Of a stretch of DNA of 64,000 nt, positions 7,078 to 32,292 are shown piece by piece. Origin of the DNA: Phytoactinopolyspora limicola (GTDB lineage: Bacteria; Actinomycetota; Actinomycetes; Jiangellales; Jiangellaceae); assembly GCF_011320225.1 (NCBI RefSeq), contig NZ_JAAOEN010000009.1, positions 1 to 64,000 on the forward strand. Direction: 5' to 3'. The stretch's first letter is position 1. Every line of letters begins with the position of its first letter. The position numbers were made by a program, and so were the translations under genes. The notes beneath the pieces were generated by a model that saw only the letters and a program-made list of their open reading frames with translations, searched no databases and was not told where the DNA came from.

Positions 7078-8196
7078 ATGAGCCGCACCATCATCGACGT
7101 TCACATCCTGCAGACCGTCCCGCCGTCCAACCTGAACCGGGACGACACCGGCAGCCCCAAGACCGCCGTCTACGGCGGCGTGCGCCGGGCCCGTGTTTCT
7201 AGCCAGGCCTGGAAGCGGGCAACTCGAGTCCACTTCCAGGACACACTTGATCCGTCCGAGCTGGGGGTGCGCACCCGCCGCGTCGTCGACCTGTTGGCCG
7301 AAGAGATCGGCAGGCAGGCGCCTGAGCTGGGTGAGCGTTCCAAAGAGCTGGCGGTTGCGACGTTCAAGGCGATCGGCATCGTCGTCAAACCGCCGAAGAA
7401 GGACGAAACCGAGGAATCCGGATATCTCGTCTTCCTGAGTCGACGCCAAATCGAGAGCCTGGCGGCCGCCGCCGTCGAAGCCGCCGAGGCGGACGACGTC
7501 GTGAAGGCGCTCAAGGACGCCGACGCCAAGGCGCTGGCCGACCGCGACCACGCGATCGCCATCTCGTTGTTCGGTCGGATGGTAGCTGACCAGGCCGATC
7601 TCAACGTCGACGCGTCCGCGCAGGTGGCGCACGCCATCAGCGTCCACCCGGTGGAGACGGAGTTCGACTACTTCACCGCCGTCGACGACACCAATCCGGA
7701 GGAAGACACCGGTGCCGGCATGATCGGCACGGTCGAGTTCAACTCGTCCACGCTGTACCGGTACGCGACCGTCGACGTGAATCGGCTCGCGGACAACCTC
7801 GGTGACGTGGCGGCGACGTCGCGGGCTGTGCGGACGTTCGTCGAGTCGTTCATCCGGTCGATGCCCACGGGCAAACAGAACACGTTCGCGAACCGGACGT
7901 TGCCGGAGGCCGTCGTCGTCATGATCCGTGATACCCAGCCGATCAACCTGGTCGGAGCGTTCGAGAATCCAGTTCGGGAGTCGGAGATCGACGGCCGGAT
8001 CAAGCGGGCGTCGGATGCGTTGCGCGACGAGGCAAAGGAGATCGAACGTGCGTACTCCGAGTCGCCGTTGACGGTCTGGGTGACGCGGGTGGGCGACGAC
8101 ACAGCCAGCCTTGACGACCTAGGCAGCAACGTCCCACTAGCGGACATGGTGGCAGGACTCGGCACACTGGTCGACTCCCGTCTCGGAGCGCAGTGA
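7078..8196 (+). CDS. cas7e: Cas7e (Cse4/CasC), crRNA backbone subunit of Cascade
   Basis: A 372-aa RAMP protein; six copies line the crRNA in Cascade. The start is supported by GGAG 8 nt upstream of the ATG. The N-terminus has the Cas7e hallmark IDVHILQTVPPSNLNRDDTG followed by VSSQAWKRATR. Further features are GMIGTVEFNSSTLYRYA and the C-terminal FANRTLPEAVVVMIRD, both typical. It lies 11 nt after cse2 in the operon. Confidence 0.96.
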   Translation: MSRTIIDVHILQTVPPSNLNRDDTGSPKTAVYGGVRRARVSSQAWKRATRVHFQDTLDPSELGVRTRRVVDLLAEEIGRQAPELGERSKELAVATFKAIGIVVKPPKKDETEESGYLVFLSRRQIESLAAAAVEAAEADDVVKALKDADAKALADRDHAIAISLFGRMVADQADLNVDASAQVAHAISVHPVETEFDYFTAVDDTNPEEDTGAGMIGTVEFNSSTLYRYATVDVNRLADNLGDVAATSRAVRTFVESFIRSMPTGKQNTFANRTLPEAVVVMIRDTQPINLVGAFENPVRESEIDGRIKRASDALRDEAKEIERAYSESPLTVWVTRVGDDTASLDDLGSNVPLADMVAGLGTLVDSRLGAQ

Positions 8197-8954
8197 TGGC
8201 CGTCGTCGCACTCAGGCTATCCGGGCCGCTGCAATCGTGGGGTTCGGGCAGCAAGTTCGTCCGACGAACCACCGAGACGGCGCCGACCAAGAGTGGCGTG
8301 CTTGGCCTTGTGGCGGCGGCCAAAGGGATCCGGCGTACCGAACCGCTCACCGAACTCCTCGGGTTGACGTTCGGAGTCCGGGTCGATCAACCGGGCCAAC
8401 TGGTCCGCGACTTCCAGACCGCGCAGCGGCAACGGAAGGAACGGGACGGTTCGACCACATGGCGATCTCTGCCGCTGTCTTACCGCTACTACATGAGCGA
8501 CGCTGCCTATGTAGCTGTGCTCGAAGGGGACCGGGCGTTACTCGACGGTATCGACGCCGCTGTGCGTAGCCCGGTGTTCCCGCTGTATCTGGGTCGGCGT
8601 TCGTGTCCGCCCGCCGGGCCGATCGCGCTCGGTGTCTTCGACTACGACGCGGCGACGGCGCTGGAGCAGCTGCCATGGCGGGCGAGCGTGCAGCACCAGC
8701 GTCGTCGGCGCGGTGAAGCCCAGGTGCCGTTGGAGACGGTCCGCGACGCGACGCCGGGGGAGCCGGAAGCAGAGACCATCCATGACGAACCGGTCAGCTT
8801 CGACCCCAACCGTCGCCAGTACGGGTGGCGGTCGGTAGTCCGGGGCACCGTCGTCGTCGACAATCCCCAGGCGGACGGTTCGGACCGGGCCGACGCGCCC
8901 GGGACCGGTGCGCCCGTCGAACACGATCCGATGTCAGTACTGCCGGGAGGCTGA
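8196..8954 (+). CDS. cas5e: Cas5e (CasD), crRNA 5'-handle-binding subunit of Cascade
   Basis: A 252-aa RAMP protein that caps the 5' handle of the crRNA. It begins with the Cas5 signature LRLSGPLQSWGSGSKF and TKSGVLGLVAAAKG, and contains LSYRYYMSDAAYV and VFPLYLGRRSCPPAGP, all conserved in Cas5e. The ATG at 8196 overlaps the cas7e stop by 1 nt; a GTG one codon upstream (8193) is the alternative start. The C-terminal 40 residues are low-complexity and acidic. Confidence 0.94.
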   Translation: MAVVALRLSGPLQSWGSGSKFVRRTTETAPTKSGVLGLVAAAKGIRRTEPLTELLGLTFGVRVDQPGQLVRDFQTAQRQRKERDGSTTWRSLPLSYRYYMSDAAYVAVLEGDRALLDGIDAAVRSPVFPLYLGRRSCPPAGPIALGVFDYDAATALEQLPWRASVQHQRRRRGEAQVPLETVRDATPGEPEAETIHDEPVSFDPNRRQYGWRSVVRGTVVVDNPQADGSDRADAPGTGAPVEHDPMSVLPGG

Positions 8955-8955
8955 C

Positions 8956-9636
8956 ATGTTCCTGACCAGAATGCCGATCAACCCGGCCCGTCGTGGCGCG
9001 CGTCGCCTCATGGCGTCGCCGCAGGCCATGCATGCGGCGGTGTTATCCGGCTTCGCCGACGACCCGAACCCGTCGGTGGGTCGAGTGCTGTGGCGGCTCG
9101 ACACCTACGCCCAGCGCCGCGTGTCGTTGTTCGTCGCAAGCCCTGACAAACCCGACTTCACTCACATCATCGAGCAAGCCGGTTGGCCGACGACTCAGAC
9201 GTGGGAGACCAGATCGTACGAACCTCTCCTCGACTCGCTCAAGCCCGGGCAGCGGTGGCAGTTCCGGCTGACCGCGAACCCGGTGCACTCAGGGCGCCGC
9301 GAGGACTGGGCCGACACGAAACCGCTGGGACACGTCACGGTGAAGCAGCAGGAGACATGGCTGCTCGACCGGGCAGACCGGTGGGGTTTCCAAGTGCGCC
9401 CGAGTCTGGTGGGCGACGACGAGCCGGATCTGGCCGTGGTCGACCGGTCGGTCCGTCGGTTCGACCGCAAGGGCGCCCAAGTGACGCTGGCGGTAGCGAC
9501 GTTCCAGGGCCAGCTGGAAGTGCGAGACGCTGATGCGTTGCGGCACACGTTGACGCACGGAGTAGGCCGGGCGAAGGCTTACGGCTGTGGGCTGTTGACT
9601 CTTGCGCGGCCCCCGTCGAGTCCGTCGTCGTCGTGA
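8956..9636 (+). CDS. cas6e: Cas6e (CasE), pre-crRNA endoribonuclease
   Basis: Cleaves the repeat stem-loop of the CRISPR transcript and stays bound to the 3' handle. The ATG at 8956 follows GGGAGG and lies 1 nt after the cas5e stop, giving 226 aa; an upstream in-frame ATG at 8908 lies inside cas5e. The start FLTRMPINPARRGARRLM is typical. His in QAMHAAVL is at the position of the catalytic histidine of Cas6e. The C-terminal glycine-rich loop GVGRAKAYGCGLLTL is the RAMP signature. Confidence 0.95.
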   Translation: MFLTRMPINPARRGARRLMASPQAMHAAVLSGFADDPNPSVGRVLWRLDTYAQRRVSLFVASPDKPDFTHIIEQAGWPTTQTWETRSYEPLLDSLKPGQRWQFRLTANPVHSGRREDWADTKPLGHVTVKQQETWLLDRADRWGFQVRPSLVGDDEPDLAVVDRSVRRFDRKGAQVTLAVATFQGQLEVRDADALRHTLTHGVGRAKAYGCGLLTLARPPSSPSSS

Positions 9637-26946: not shown

Positions 26947-27443
26947 CATCAGCCTGGCATCGTGCCGTCATGCCGGTCACCATCGCCACGGAAACACCGC
27001 TGCAAGATGACGTACGTCTGCTCATTGCCCAGTTGAACGAGTACCTGCGGCCGCTGTCGCCGCCCGAGTTCCAGCACCAGATGACCGTCGAAGAGATGGC
27101 CGGGCCGGATACGACGGTGTTCGTCGCACGAGCCGACGACGGTATGGCCGTCGGTTGCGGAGCGTTGAGGGTGCACGACGACGGGCTAGGCGAGGTCAAA
27201 CGGATGTTCACGGTGCCCGAGTCACGTGGTCTTCGGGTCGGATCGCTACTACTCGACGCGATCATCGAGCGGGCCAACGCGGAAGGTCTGGGCTGGTTGA
27301 TGCTGGAGACCGGGGTAGGCCCGGGGTTCGCCCCGGCGTGGCGGTTGTACCGCAGCAAGGGATTCCGGCCGCGCGGACGTTTTCTGGACTATCCCGCCAG
27401 CGACTGGTCGACGTTCTTCGAGCTGAAGCTGTCAACAACCTGA
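26943..27443 (+). CDS. GNAT family N-acetyltransferase (second of a pair)
   Basis: A 166-aa protein. The core reads VGCGALRVHDDGLGEVKRMF and VPESRGLRVGSLLLDAIIERA, motif A with the divergent loop RGLRVG. LMLETGVGPGFAPAWRLYRSKGF is motif B. The GTG at 26943 overlaps the preceding stop; the ATG at 26970 (MPVTIATETP) is an alternative start. The gene ends exactly at the left arm of a 70-bp palindrome. Confidence 0.88.
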   Translation: MTSAWHRAVMPVTIATETPLQDDVRLLIAQLNEYLRPLSPPEFQHQMTVEEMAGPDTTVFVARADDGMAVGCGALRVHDDGLGEVKRMFTVPESRGLRVGSLLLDAIIERANAEGLGWLMLETGVGPGFAPAWRLYRSKGFRPRGRFLDYPASDWSTFFELKLSTT

Positions 27444-27511
27444 CTTCGCTACCGCCAGATGGTGCTCAGGCCCTTGTAAGGCGCCGAACACCATCTGACG
27501 GTAGCGAAGTC
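27442..27511. terminator. 70-bp palindromic element (family A, copy 1)
   Basis: GACTTCGCTACCG at 27442-27454 is the exact complement of CGGTAGCGAAGTC at 27499-27511. The interior continues to pair imperfectly (CAGATGGTG with CACCATCTG). It lies between convergent genes and so can serve as a bidirectional terminator. A near-identical copy occurs at 29138-29209. Confidence 0.75.
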
Positions 27512-27527
27512 GAGGGTGAATGAGGGG

Positions 27528-29045
27528 TCATCCGTCGCCGTCGACGGTTCGCAGCATCGACACGAAACCTTCGATCGCTTCGATGTCGCCGGCTGGCAAA
27601 GTGTCCTGCGAGAAATGCATGAGTTCGTTCCGGATCTTGCGGACCCTATTGACCAGATCGAGAAAGGTCTGATGGTCGAGCGGCCACTCGAGTTGTGCGA
27701 AGAGTTCGGAATCCTCGAGGAGCTTGCCATACTGGCCAAACGTCGGTACCCCGTTGCTCCATCGATGGGTGATCTTCTCGACTCTGTCTGCCGGCAACGA
27801 CCGGATGACATGCCGCCGCAGCCGCAGCTCCGCCTCTTCGACCAGGGAGAACGGCCTGGCCAAGACACCGAACTGGCGAGCGAGGTCATGGGCGGTGACG
27901 ATGCCTACCAGCGACCGTCGGTCTTCCCCGCGGACCAGGACGTAGCCGCGACGTGAGATCTCATCGATCTGGGCGAAGAGGTCGTCGTCGTAGTCGACCA
28001 CTCGAACCTGGACCGTGGCATCGGCGAGAGTGGCGTCGGGATTGGACAGCCGGGCGCGGCCGATCGACTCCCACGTCACGGCACCTTGGTAGTAGCCATG
28101 CTCATCGACGACGGCTAGCTGCGAGTAGTTCGTCGCCAGCATCCGAGTGACGGCCACGGACAATGGACTGCCGATGACCACCGACTCCACCGTCCGGTCG
28201 GCCGCGAGCACGGCACTGACCCGCCATTTCACTGGAATCTCGTCGGGATCCGGGGTGCTGTCTATAGCGGGAGAACCGGTCGCTGCCTCGGACGCGGTGT
28301 CGGGCTCAGCGATAGGCACCAACTCGACGACGGAGTCCAACCGGACGGTGGACAGCGATGGCTGAACGGCGATGCCGTCATCGGCCAGCTCGGACTGGAT
28401 GACCGCTAGGGACGTCGCGGTCCGACGGCTGAAACCCCACATCGCCAACAGGCCGCGGGCTGTCAGGCGGACAGGTTCCTGACCGTCTGAGACGGCCTCG
28501 AGGAGATCGGTCCTGGTGGCGTCGGGCTCGAGACTGGCCGAACTGTGACTCCAGCCCGGATCGGGCTCGTGTCGGGCAATCTGTTCGATCCGGGCAGGTG
28601 CGTCGTGCCGGGTGAGTTGGCAGACCGTGAGCAGCGAGCCCATGCTGGCGCGCAGGTCAGGTTTAACTTCGCTCCGGCTGATGTCGGTTCGCAGCCACTT
28701 CACCGGGCGGACGTGGCGGAAGCCGGGCGGGGCTTCGGCGCGGAACTGGTACGTGCCGGTGACCTCACCGATGGCGAGTCGGGGTGGGTTCTTCAGGGGC
28801 ATGACAACGAGGTCGCCCACAGCGATCTGACGGGTGAATCGCCAGAGCTGACCGGTCCAGTTGCCGATGAGATATGCCGATTTATCCGGATAGACGCTGG
28901 CGAGTTCCTGGCGCAGCGCTGCCCTGGTCTCATGCTGCCCGATGTCTGGGACGTTCTCCCAGCCGGCGATGATAAGCCCCTCGTCGAGTGCGACGTCCTG
29001 GCGTTCGCCGTGGCGTCCGGCCCGTACTTGCCATGCAGATCTCAT
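27528..29045 (-). CDS. Mrr-N-like / CBS-pair / HEPN-like multidomain protein
   Basis: A 505-aa protein; the ATG at 29045 follows a G-rich RBS. Residues about 5-165 match the reader domain found at the N-terminus of Mrr-type restriction enzymes: WQVRAGRHGE, GNWTGQLWRF, VGDLVVMPLK, AIGEVTGTYQF, HVRPVKWLRTD and SMGSLLTVCQL. Residues about 190-250 form a small domain around LLAMWGFSRRTATSL. Two CBS motifs follow at about 275-400 (LATNYSQLAVVDEHGYYQGAV and SRRGYVLVRGEDRRSLVGIVT). The last 105 residues are helical and contain RNELMH (Arg472-His477), the HEPN RNase motif. No Mrr catalytic domain is present. A ligand-gated RNase is inferred. Confidence 0.75.
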   Translation of the reverse strand: MRSAWQVRAGRHGERQDVALDEGLIIAGWENVPDIGQHETRAALRQELASVYPDKSAYLIGNWTGQLWRFTRQIAVGDLVVMPLKNPPRLAIGEVTGTYQFRAEAPPGFRHVRPVKWLRTDISRSEVKPDLRASMGSLLTVCQLTRHDAPARIEQIARHEPDPGWSHSSASLEPDATRTDLLEAVSDGQEPVRLTARGLLAMWGFSRRTATSLAVIQSELADDGIAVQPSLSTVRLDSVVELVPIAEPDTASEAATGSPAIDSTPDPDEIPVKWRVSAVLAADRTVESVVIGSPLSVAVTRMLATNYSQLAVVDEHGYYQGAVTWESIGRARLSNPDATLADATVQVRVVDYDDDLFAQIDEISRRGYVLVRGEDRRSLVGIVTAHDLARQFGVLARPFSLVEEAELRLRRHVIRSLPADRVEKITHRWSNGVPTFGQYGKLLEDSELFAQLEWPLDHQTFLDLVNRVRKIRNELMHFSQDTLPAGDIEAIEGFVSMLRTVDGDG

Positions 29046-29137
29046 CCATCCACCCCTGGCGCTGGCAATCCGTGGCCCAGAGGCTAGATCAAGATCGCCT
29101 TCTTGGCTAGGACCAACGTTCCGAACGGGGGTTTTCC

Positions 29138-29209
29138 CGACTGCGCTACCGCCAGATGGTGTTCGGGCCCTCGCAAGGCGCCGAACACCATCTGGCGGTA
29201 GCGAGGTCG
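29138..29209. repeat. 72-bp palindromic element (family A, copy 2)
   Basis: CGACTGCGCTACCGCCAG ... CTGGCGGTAGCGAGGTCG, with a GTGTTCGG / CCGAACAC inner stem. It is closely similar to the copy at 27442-27511. Here it lies upstream of the HEPN-like gene and upstream of the plus-strand membrane protein, so it does not follow any gene end. This argues that the family is a dispersed repeat, not only a terminator. Confidence 0.75.
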
Positions 29210-29308
29210 AGAAAAGCCGCGCTAGGCTGGATTTGAGCGAGTGCTCAAACCTGCTGGCGGTGGACGAGAGGTCCACGGGTGGCGGGCGACGGAACGGTGG
29301 TGGCGACG

Positions 29309-30880
29309 ATGCCGGACTGGACATATCACCCGCTCCGGGGGATGGCCTCGAGACTTCTGGGAACTCGTCGTTCACAACGTCTGGCGCTGCGGACCATGGC
29401 CACCGTTGGGTCGCTACCTGGTGGCGGCTGGCTGATCGCACGCGCGTTCGGGCATCGTCATCCGCCGTCGCACCTGGCCGGTGTCGTCGCCGGTGTGCCG
29501 GTGCGGACCCGGCTCGGCGCCGTGGTGCCACCCCATGTGGCGGCGGCTGCCATCCGGGCGTTTCCACTGCTCGGCGCCGGGTTCGTCGAGGTGTCGCCGG
29601 CGGGGTTGGCGGACGTCGAGCAGATCCGGGCGGCCAGTGCGCGACGCCGCGTCCCGATCATCGTCCACCCGGGTGGCGCCGACGCTTCGGCGGTGGCGGA
29701 CACCTTGAAGGATCACGTCGATGCCGTACGCGTCGGCGACGACCCCGCCCTCGTCTACACGCCGGACGGCGACGTACCCGAGACCGCACGTATTCTGTCC
29801 GCGGATCGCGCGGCCACGGTGCTCGCCACTCCGGCCGTGCTGATCAGGGAGGGCCCGGGCTGGTTCGCGCGGGTGACGGAGGCGGCTACCACCACCTACC
29901 CAGCGCCGACGCTGAGATCGGTGGGCCGCCACCCGCGTAGCTGGCCGCCCTGGTTCTGGGGACTACTCGTCGGCCTCGGAATGATCGGCGCCGGGATCGG
30001 TGCGGCCGCGATCACCCTCGGGCCGGTCCTGCTCTGGTATGACCGAGACTTCCTCGGCCTCGACGTCGACCAACTGCATCACATCAACCACCACCTGGTG
30101 CATTTCCTGCAACACGACCGGATCACCATGGCCGGCACCATGGTCGCCATCGGAGTGCTCTATGTCGGCCTCGCCCACGGCGGCATCCGACGAGGCTGGC
30201 CGTGGGCGCGCGACGTGTACCTCATCTCGGGGCTGGTCGGCTTCCCGAGCCTGCTCTACTTCCTTGGGTTCGGATTCGTCGAGCCGTTGCACACCGCCGT
30301 CACCGTCGTCCTCTTCCCGATGTTGCTGCTCGCTACCTGGCGCCGTCCCGGTCAGCCGCGATGGACACTGCTCGGCACCGGGCCAGTTCGGCAGTGGCAT
30401 CGGGCGCTGGTCGGACAGCTGTTGATGATCTGCACCGGTGTCGGCCTGTTCATCGGCGGTGTTGTTGTCTCGGTGGTCGGCCTCACCGGGGTGTTCGTGC
30501 CGAGCGACCTGGCGTTCTTGGGGGCCGGGGCGGCCGAGCTCGACGCGGCGAACAGCCGACTCCTCGACTTCGTCGCCCATGACCGGGCCGGCTTCGGTGG
30601 TGCGCTGATGGCGGCGGCCACCGCGATCGTCCTGCTTAGTGCGTGGGGCTGGCGACGCGGCGAGGCGTGGGTGTGGTGGTCGTTGCTGCTGGCCGCGGCG
30701 GCTGGTTTCCTGCCGGCGGTCGTCGTCCACGGCGCGATCAGCTACACCGATCTTCTTCACCTCGCACCGGTGTACTTCGGCATGCTGTTGACCGCCGTCG
30801 CGCTCGCGCTGGCCCGGCCGTACCTGTGTGCCCACCGCGAACCGGCCCGTCAACCACAGCACGTACGGTCGTCGTTATGA
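29309..30880 (+). CDS. Fusion: dihydroorotate-dehydrogenase-like N-terminus plus polytopic membrane domain
   Basis: A protein of 523 aa from ATG 29309; a GTG at 29279 is the alternative. Residues about 1-215 resemble the class-2 dihydroorotate dehydrogenase barrel start: WTYHPLRGMASRLLG, FGHRHPPSHLAGVVAGVPVR, then LLGAGFVEVSPAGLADVEQI. The flavin-binding end of the barrel is not evident. From about 220 on there are roughly 8 hydrophobic segments with His-rich loops (QLHHINHHLVHFLQHD). It shares ATGA with the downstream TetR gene, so that regulator probably controls it. Function unknown; the flavin/quinone link is inferred. Confidence 0.6.
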   Translation: MPDWTYHPLRGMASRLLGTRRSQRLALRTMATVGSLPGGGWLIARAFGHRHPPSHLAGVVAGVPVRTRLGAVVPPHVAAAAIRAFPLLGAGFVEVSPAGLADVEQIRAASARRRVPIIVHPGGADASAVADTLKDHVDAVRVGDDPALVYTPDGDVPETARILSADRAATVLATPAVLIREGPGWFARVTEAATTTYPAPTLRSVGRHPRSWPPWFWGLLVGLGMIGAGIGAAAITLGPVLLWYDRDFLGLDVDQLHHINHHLVHFLQHDRITMAGTMVAIGVLYVGLAHGGIRRGWPWARDVYLISGLVGFPSLLYFLGFGFVEPLHTAVTVVLFPMLLLATWRRPGQPRWTLLGTGPVRQWHRALVGQLLMICTGVGLFIGGVVVSVVGLTGVFVPSDLAFLGAGAAELDAANSRLLDFVAHDRAGFGGALMAAATAIVLLSAWGWRRGEAWVWWSLLLAAAAGFLPAVVVHGAISYTDLLHLAPVYFGMLLTAVALALARPYLCAHREPARQPQHVRSSL

Positions 30881-31512
30881 CTGACACCCGTCAGCGTTTG
30901 ATCGATGGCGCGATCCAGACCATCCGCGACCATGGCGTGGCGGGGGCGTCGGCCAGGACCATCGCGGCGGCCGCGGGAGTGAACCAGGCGCTGGTCTTTT
31001 ACCACTTCGGCAGCGTGCATGAGCTGCTGGAGCAGGCTTGCCTGGTCGCCACCGAAGCGAGAGTGGCGCCATTCGTGGCCGAGTTGGAAGAGGTCCGCGG
31101 GCTCCGGCAGCTGCTGGACCTGGGCCGCCGCATGCACGCCGAGGAACGGTCGTTGGGCAACGTCACGGTCCTGGCGCAGATGCTGGCCGCCGCGCAATCC
31201 GATCGCCGCCTGGCCGGCCCGACCGCGACCGCCCTGCACTTGTGGATCGCCCCGATCCAGCGGACTCTCGACCGCGTTCTCATCGGCTCACCGCTGGCCG
31301 AGCTGGTGGACACGGCCGGTCTGGCCCGCGCGGTGAGCGCGGGGTTCATCGGCCTGGAGTTGTTCGAGGGGGTCGATCCGGCCGGTGCGGACGCCGCGAT
31401 GACGGAACTGGAACGGCTAGCCGTGATCGTGGAGGCGCTGGACGATCTCGGACCGGTCACCCGGCGGTTGCTGCGCAGCAGGTTGCGTCCGCTGACCACC
31501 CAGGGGAACTGA
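30877..31512 (+). CDS. TetR/AcrR family transcriptional regulator
   Basis: A 211-aa repressor-type protein. The N-terminal HTH is DTRQRLIDGAIQTIRDHG, then ASARTIAAAAGVNQALVFYHFGS, the full TetR signature. The C-terminal ligand-binding domain is helical, without recognisable ligand. It overlaps the stop of the membrane-fusion gene by 4 nt, so it is co-transcribed and likely autoregulates that pair. Confidence 0.92.
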   Translation: MTDTRQRLIDGAIQTIRDHGVAGASARTIAAAAGVNQALVFYHFGSVHELLEQACLVATEARVAPFVAELEEVRGLRQLLDLGRRMHAEERSLGNVTVLAQMLAAAQSDRRLAGPTATALHLWIAPIQRTLDRVLIGSPLAELVDTAGLARAVSAGFIGLELFEGVDPAGADAAMTELERLAVIVEALDDLGPVTRRLLRSRLRPLTTQGN

Positions 31513-31683
31513 CCGGCACCGCCTCGCCCGGTTGAACGCCCGCGGCCATCTGGCGGGGCGCAATACAACCGTTACCGGTGTCTCCCGATATTTCGTGACG
31601 GCCGGGAGGTCCCTGTCGATTTCAGACCCGGCCGTTCGTGTAGGGGGTGAAACCAACCGTCAATCGAAGAAGGATGGCTGTCG

Positions 31684-32292
31684 ATGGGGAACGTCGTCGT
31701 ATTCAACAACCTCACGTTAGATGGCGTCATGCAGGCGCCGGGCAGGCCAGATGAAGATCGCCGGGGCGGATTCGCGCACGGCGGCTGGTCGCCGCCGTAT
31801 GGAGACGAGGTGATGGGCCGCGTCATGGCCGAAGGCATGGCCGAGGGGGGACCTATCTTGCTCGGGCGTCGGACCTATGAGGACTTCTTCTCCTACTGGC
31901 CGAAACAGCAAGACAACCAGATCAGCGACGTGCTCACCAAAACACCCAAATACGTTGCGTCACGGACGCTGACCGAGCGGTTGCCGTGGGAGAACTCCAC
32001 GCTGGTTGCCGATGCCGTCGCCACCGTGCCGCGGCTCAAGGCTCAGGAGAGCAAGGACATCACCGTGCTGGGCAGCGGGAACCTGCTGACGTCGTTGATG
32101 CGGCACAACCTGGTGGATCGGTACATACTGCTGATCCATCCCCTCGTGCTGGGGTCCGGGCAGCGCATGTTCGGTGAGGGTGACCTGGCGCGGCTGCGAT
32201 TGGTGGATTCGGTGTCGACAACCACCGGCGTCATGATCGCCACCTATGAACCCGTGAGCGGGACCGGCGGTGCCCGTGCGGTTCGTCATTGA
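31684..32292 (+). CDS. Dihydrofolate reductase family protein (RibD C-terminal-like)
   Basis: A 202-aa NADPH-dependent reductase of the RibD-C/DHFR-like fold. Hallmarks are VVVFNNLTLDGVMQAPGRPDED, GRRTYEDFFSYWP and ITVLGSGNLLTSLMRHNLVD, where the GSG is the cofactor loop. LLIHPLVLGSGQRMF follows. RBS GAAGGA lies 9 nt before the ATG. These stand-alone proteins have unknown physiological substrates. The gene precedes a DGPF protein and an ECF sigma factor, a common actinobacterial grouping. Confidence 0.9.
   Translation: MGNVVVFNNLTLDGVMQAPGRPDEDRRGGFAHGGWSPPYGDEVMGRVMAEGMAEGGPILLGRRTYEDFFSYWPKQQDNQISDVLTKTPKYVASRTLTERLPWENSTLVADAVATVPRLKAQESKDITVLGSGNLLTSLMRHNLVDRYILLIHPLVLGSGQRMFGEGDLARLRLVDSVSTTTGVMIATYEPVSGTGGARAVRH

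Follow-up and report, generated by a model that had tools for sequence, protein, structure and literature searches.

A predicted YTH/EVE-like reader fused to a DS-11-like CBS-HEPN core in Phytoactinopolyspora limicola: a putative single-gene anti-phage effector

The locus described here lies within a window of 64,000 nucleotides (the whole stretch of DNA that was analysed) and comprises one minus-strand gene at 27528–29045, whose 505-amino acid product combines a YTH/EVE-like reader, a small winged-helix-like (wH-like) domain, a CBS pair and a predicted HEPN domain. A preliminary description had placed the open reading frame at this position and on this strand, and the motifs that it named (VGDLVVMPLK, AIGEVTGTYQF, HVRPVKWLRTD and RNELMH) are all present. 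The longest mechanical open reading frame reaches 29567 and would encode 679 amino acids; the gene start was set at the ATG at 29045 because homologues begin there. The frame is intact with every conserved residue in place, and the fused gene is present as a single copy in its own genome. On the minus strand throughout, the reader occupies residues 1–160 (28566–29045; assigned from AlphaFold2, Foldseek, VIA-align, PADLOC and conservation, with W29, W63, Q66, Y99 and W117 invariant) and is followed by a helix-strand domain at residues 178–245 (28311–28514), seen in the secondary structure, putatively wH-like and also found in unfused DS-11 proteins. A low-confidence linker (residues 248–271; 28233–28304; pLDDT <50) leads into the CBS pair, or Bateman module, at residues 272–396 (27858–28232; Pfam CBS and structure match), which contains Y307, the counterpart of DS-11 Y157, as well as T384 and D387 within the sequence GIVTAHD. 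The C-terminal residues 397–503 (27537–27857) form the predicted HEPN domain, with R472-N-E-L-M-H477 (27615–27632) as its predicted catalytic motif. This domain content and order are well supported.

The fused gene lies precisely between two near-perfect palindromes of 76 nucleotides that share 89% identity and the same orientation, one directly downstream (27439–27514; fold −51.9 kcal/mol, z −9.6) and the other directly upstream (29136–29211; fold −63.2 kcal/mol, z −12.5). They are each other's nearest copies in the genome (identity 0.89; next 0.79), where about 45 such palindromes are dispersed; an exact-core search found none in four genus mates. Other pairs bracket a 362-amino acid open reading frame without Pfam match (L124; C8 64900/66187), a mycothiol-S-transferase-like open reading frame (L125; C15 26435/27158) and the gene of a TPR protein (L126; C24 29050/29721), and four pairs within 1.7 kb were observed where uniform placement would give 0.5 (P 0.002). 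Palindrome-bracketed single genes could be gene cassettes or local element duplications; an integron cassette was rejected since the palindromes are dispersed over the genome.

The neighbours of the gene in the window are metabolic and not defence genes (propionyl/acetyl-CoA synthetase, GNAT, membrane protein), and its GC3 of 0.77 is low against a window mean of 0.83. The surrounding region is a variable spot (27439–31690 in the window, 9400–13420 in L140) with flanks conserved in a sister species, where nitrilase-like, DUF222/HNH-type and nucleotidyltransferase-like open reading frames replace the fused gene. The protein is absent from the four genus mates, and in relatives the matches to the NCBIfam model DS11_antiphage (NF053863) are to generic CBS domains only. 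Because the sister species retains both flanks around other genes and the genus mates lack the protein, the gene is here a recent or repeatedly lost insertion.

The N-terminal region had been likened to the reader domain that precedes Mrr nucleases. This likeness holds in that residues 3–174 match positions 2–173 of the 346 in the PADLOC profile PDC-S02 (E 1.9e-55), of which the remaining half is an Mrr nuclease (L079: Mrr_cat E 8e-21); the equation with Pfam Mrr_N does not, and neither Mrr_N nor Mrr_cat was matched in the window protein at E up to 0.1. The Mrr catalytic domain is thus missing, as had been noticed from the sequence. When residues 1–168 were folded alone with 35 sequences, AlphaFold2 returned a model of high confidence (pLDDT 95.6, pTM 0.89), for which the best 22 Foldseek matches were all YTH or EVE domains (best E 8e-4). 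All 50 entries listed by VIA-align were PUA-superfamily proteins (Z 8.8–10.2 over 115–123 residues), mostly YTH m6A readers (YTHDF/YTHDC), together with archaeal EVE-like proteins and the EVE-HNH enzyme VcaM4I. According to this model, residues 1–168 adopt a YTH/EVE-like (PUA-superfamily) modified-base-reader fold, which was detected by folding alone and not by sequence profiles. Identity to solved YTH domains is about 5–14%, and the ligand is therefore not readable from the fold match. In the restriction systems where the ligand is known, prokaryotic YTH/EVE domains bind modified DNA (PMC7897488, PMC7641849): VcaM4I flips 5mC or 5hmC into a pocket formed by P24, W82 and Y130, and 6mA is bound by the YTH domain in Thermococcus gammatolerans McrB (PMC7897488). 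By analogy, the aromatic residues W29, W63, Y99 and W117, which are invariant in 31 homologues, may serve a pocket, W29 and Y99 being the candidates for holding a flipped base.

The C-terminal half of the protein is related to DS-11, a one-protein CBS and HEPN anti-phage system published in 2026 in the DefensePredictor study (PMC13092281). All 305 positions of NF053863 align with residues 197–498 (E 1.7e-64), beginning inside the small wH-like domain. This model is an equivalog with a curated cut-off of 260 bits, and we regard the window protein as DS-11-like and not as DS-11 because it scores 217.9 bits, whereas its close fused homologue L061 scores 263 bits. An E. coli homologue reaches 405 bits and occurs in 127 of the 5426 complete genomes of that species; the tyrosine of its DYSQLPV motif falls exactly at position 157 and aligns with Y307 in NYSQLAV of the window protein. 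DS-11 was shown to defend E. coli, with both CBS Y157 and the HEPN catalytic residues required, and its authors propose an unidentified adenine derivative as the ligand (PMC13092281). Fusions of CBS and HEPN domains had been noted as early as 2013 (PMC3710099). The proposal of an undescribed defence protein therefore stands for the reader fusion and not for the C-terminal 300 residues, which by sequence correspond to the core of DS-11.

The two CBS motifs recognised earlier are well founded: the repeats are matched by Pfam CBS (E 2.3e-9) as the sole Pfam domains reported at E up to 0.1, CBS pairs in the PDB align at Z of about 16 (3kpc/MJ0100: Z 16.5, rmsd 1.9, 121 residues aligned), and the ribose motif is present with T384 and D387. 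Whole-model Foldseek and VIA-align searches listed CBS proteins only and so bear on the CBS pair and not on the HEPN region; profiles of the reader and HEPN regions yielded no convincing chain in the PDB, and no Pfam HEPN model matched the window protein, so that the single sequence gives weak evidence of HEPN. The HEPN assignment is based on the relation to DS-11, a helical model, a motif invariant across architectures and weak Pfam matches in relatives: HEPN_Swt1 was weakly matched in 6 of 25 relatives (best E 0.0027, under the cut-off), and the other top weak matches of their C-terminal regions were mostly to the HEPN clan, Swt1-like first. These matches are consistent with a HEPN fold, which a profile search of the C-terminus might have contradicted.

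The reading of RNELMH as the R-x4-H motif of HEPN RNases (R-x4-6-H in the superfamily) is supported by conservation. R472, N473 and H477, like D387, W29 and Y99, are invariant in all 31 fused homologues, and the R, N and H residues are also invariant in a wider set of 25 that includes unfused and RAMA-fused relatives; on these alignments, the motif is far from a chance match. The fused homologues retain both R-N-x3-H and the CBS motif G-[IL]-x-[TS]-x-x-D, with T at position 384 in 30 and S in one. Position 307 is more variable: 13 of these homologues have Y, 17 have F and one has L.

Scans for close relatives with the single protein found nothing in genome contigs, viral contigs or phages, whereas an alignment query recovered 38 loci. 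Some 30 of these are full length and keep the domain order, in more than 15 actinomycete genera (Micromonospora, Nocardia, Streptosporangium, Nonomuraea, Actinomadura, Saccharopolyspora, Streptomyces, Cellulomonas and others). One fused gene lies on a Streptomyces plasmid. The gene is rare, occurring in 5 of 394 sampled genomes of the class, its own included. Two copies (L117, L120; ~8000–9560) are broken by frame changes, and in two other loci (L115, L116) mainly the reader half is retained. In a tree of the core, the 21 reader-fused rows are held together by a branch supported at 97/98.

Both halves of the protein have other partners. The YTH/EVE-like reader is joined to Mrr_cat in L079, to a McrB-like AAA ATPase in L084 and, in L085, occurs in a protein annotated as a restriction endonuclease (a fusion of the Mrr_cat type). 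It follows a RiboL-PSP-like HEPN domain, and hence stands in reversed order, in L077 (1100–2368, minus strand) and L078 (8797–10167, plus strand), an independent combination of reader and HEPN. The wH-CBS-HEPN core, for its part, is found unfused, fused to the YTH/EVE-like reader or fused to RAMA, a DNA-methylase-associated, R-M-linked domain. Proteins of this last kind were observed in L065 (9414–10823, minus strand; RAMA E 2e-23) and L066 (9144–10547, minus strand; RAMA E 2e-22), and the pair is placed away from the reader-fused rows in the tree. The DS-11 core thus carries modification-associated readers of two kinds, and readers have been joined to it at least twice. Literature searches found no paper combining RAMA, HEPN and CBS domains, and none joining YTH or EVE to CBS and HEPN.

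It had been asked whether homologues cluster with defence genes or share a housekeeping synteny. Their loci are not in uniform housekeeping synteny, and no neighbouring gene is conserved across most of them, which favours a stand-alone gene. In the window itself the neighbours are metabolic. Of the 37 fused loci, 10 have type I R-M genes (HsdM/R/S) no more than about 8 kb away, as against 0 of 20 random loci of the same class (Fisher p 0.008), the controls being few and drawn from fewer genomes than the fused loci. Because the PADLOC tally of neighbours was dominated by kinase models, it was replaced by Pfam searches and direct searches for R-M genes, with random loci as controls. Ser/Thr kinase domains are also common (8 of 130 when the two closest genes on either side are counted) and were not among the families common to at least two control genes. 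Type I R-M methylases place 6mA on host DNA. The R-M linkage therefore cuts both ways: it supports a role in defence, but hosts of this kind would themselves be struck if any 6mA acted as the trigger. Recognition must then hinge on sequence context or a different modification, or be confined to damaged or incoming DNA. In the genome of the window protein itself, HsdM, D12 and Eco57I adenine methylases were not found and N6_N4_Mtase had one partial match. Their absence, a condition that a toxin triggered by 6mA would require, is compatible with a reader of adenine methylation but is not proof of it.

The observed domain content and order, the reader fold, the conserved catalytic and CBS residues, the recurrence of the fusion in different genera and the excess of type I R-M genes nearby can be brought together in one explanation, in which the defence role of the window gene, the ligands of its reader and CBS pair, and the activity and target of its RNase are inferred. 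We consider it rather probable that the gene encodes a DS-11-like single-gene anti-phage effector with a built-in modified-base reader that gates a HEPN RNase. The reader would bind invading nucleic acid, most likely DNA with a modified base, which would be flipped into its aromatic pocket (W29 and Y99 being candidates). The CBS pair would dimerise the protein and bind an adenine nucleotide, and binding would release or align the C-terminal HEPN dimer, which would then cleave RNA via R472 and H477 and halt the infected cell. More specifically, modified invader DNA read by the YTH/EVE-like domain may switch on the nucleotide-gated RNase with no cut in the DNA, the readers being swappable inputs on a common output; to this fuller scheme we give somewhat less than an even chance. 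A DNA-cutting enzyme was rejected, as the protein has no DNase domain. The earlier proposal of a single-gene system in which DNA recognition or nucleotide levels gate RNA cleavage remains the best reading, with DNA presumed over RNA as the ligand.

The ligand could alternatively be RNA: the reader would bind modified or phage RNA (tRNA, rRNA or mRNA) and hand the same molecule to the HEPN domain for cleavage. Eukaryotic YTH domains, readers of m6A in RNA, make up most of the closest solved folds, a second combination of reader and HEPN exists (L077, L078), and CoCoNuT systems, with predicted RNA targeting, pair YTH-like domains with HEPN RNases (PMC11090510). We nevertheless regard RNA sensing as unlikely, because the same reader is also joined to Mrr DNA nucleases and McrB-like ATPases, its stand-in on the CBS-HEPN core is associated with DNA methylases, and the prokaryotic relatives of known ligand in restriction read modified DNA (see above).

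Less probable still is that the protein works as an ordinary DS-11: the real trigger would be the nucleotide that the CBS pair senses, and the reader would serve only as a tether to DNA or in autoregulation of the gene. Unfused DS-11 does defend without any reader domain (PMC13092281), and the CBS residues are conserved in the fused homologues; yet the reader is strongly constrained in all of these and shares its pocket-type residues with the restriction fusions, and the repeated joining of readers to the core also speaks against this reading. The metabolic neighbours, the four genus mates without the gene, the low GC3 and the broken relatives (L117, L120) would suit a non-defence regulator, a stress RNase or a gene decaying in its own genome. 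That reading we hold to be very improbable, given the intact frame with all conserved residues, a sporadic presence and R-M linkage of the kind expected of mobile defence genes, and a homologous core validated in phage defence (PMC13092281). The reading that we prefer is hence still that of a reader-gated RNase acting in defence.

Fusions of the DS-11 core to base readers offer a testable hint to what such actinomycete proteins sense. If the preferred reading is true, one chain would join modification-dependent restriction and abortive defence at the level of RNA: the destruction of RNA could be set off by marks that invading DNA or RNA carries, and a phage that evades restriction by modifying its DNA would face an RNase response and not a DNA nuclease. 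That one core bears two kinds of reader suggests a modular scheme of sensor and effector that can be mined in genomes.

Among known systems, CoCoNuT likewise features YTH-like domains and HEPN RNases, with Ser/Thr kinases and type I R-M genes nearby, but its members are multi-gene McrBC GTPase systems without a CBS-HEPN fusion of the present kind, and the text of the paper makes no mention of CBS (PMC11090510). The CoCoNuT mark, a McrB GTPase with a coiled coil, is absent from the window protein and the adjacent genes scanned. With the type IV restriction enzymes of the EVE-HNH and YTH-McrB kinds (VcaM4I; T. gammatolerans McrB) the protein shares an N-terminal PUA-superfamily modified-base reader, whereas their effector is a DNA nuclease and its own a predicted CBS-gated RNase. 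The PADLOC candidate PDC-S02 has the N-terminal 170 residues in common, its Mrr DNA nuclease being replaced here by CBS-HEPN. The RAMA-CBS-HEPN proteins (L065, L066) combine the same core with an R-M-associated N-terminal reader, but RAMA takes the place of the YTH/EVE-like domain and their position in the tree is separate. DS-11 itself (NF053863; PMC13092281) shares the order of wH-like domain, CBS pair and HEPN over its full length, the YSQ tyrosine of the first CBS repeat and R-N-x3-H; it is without a YTH/EVE-like domain, and the fused proteins form a separate group in the core tree. The parts are thus known and their combination is new: a reader-fused variant of a known anti-phage protein.
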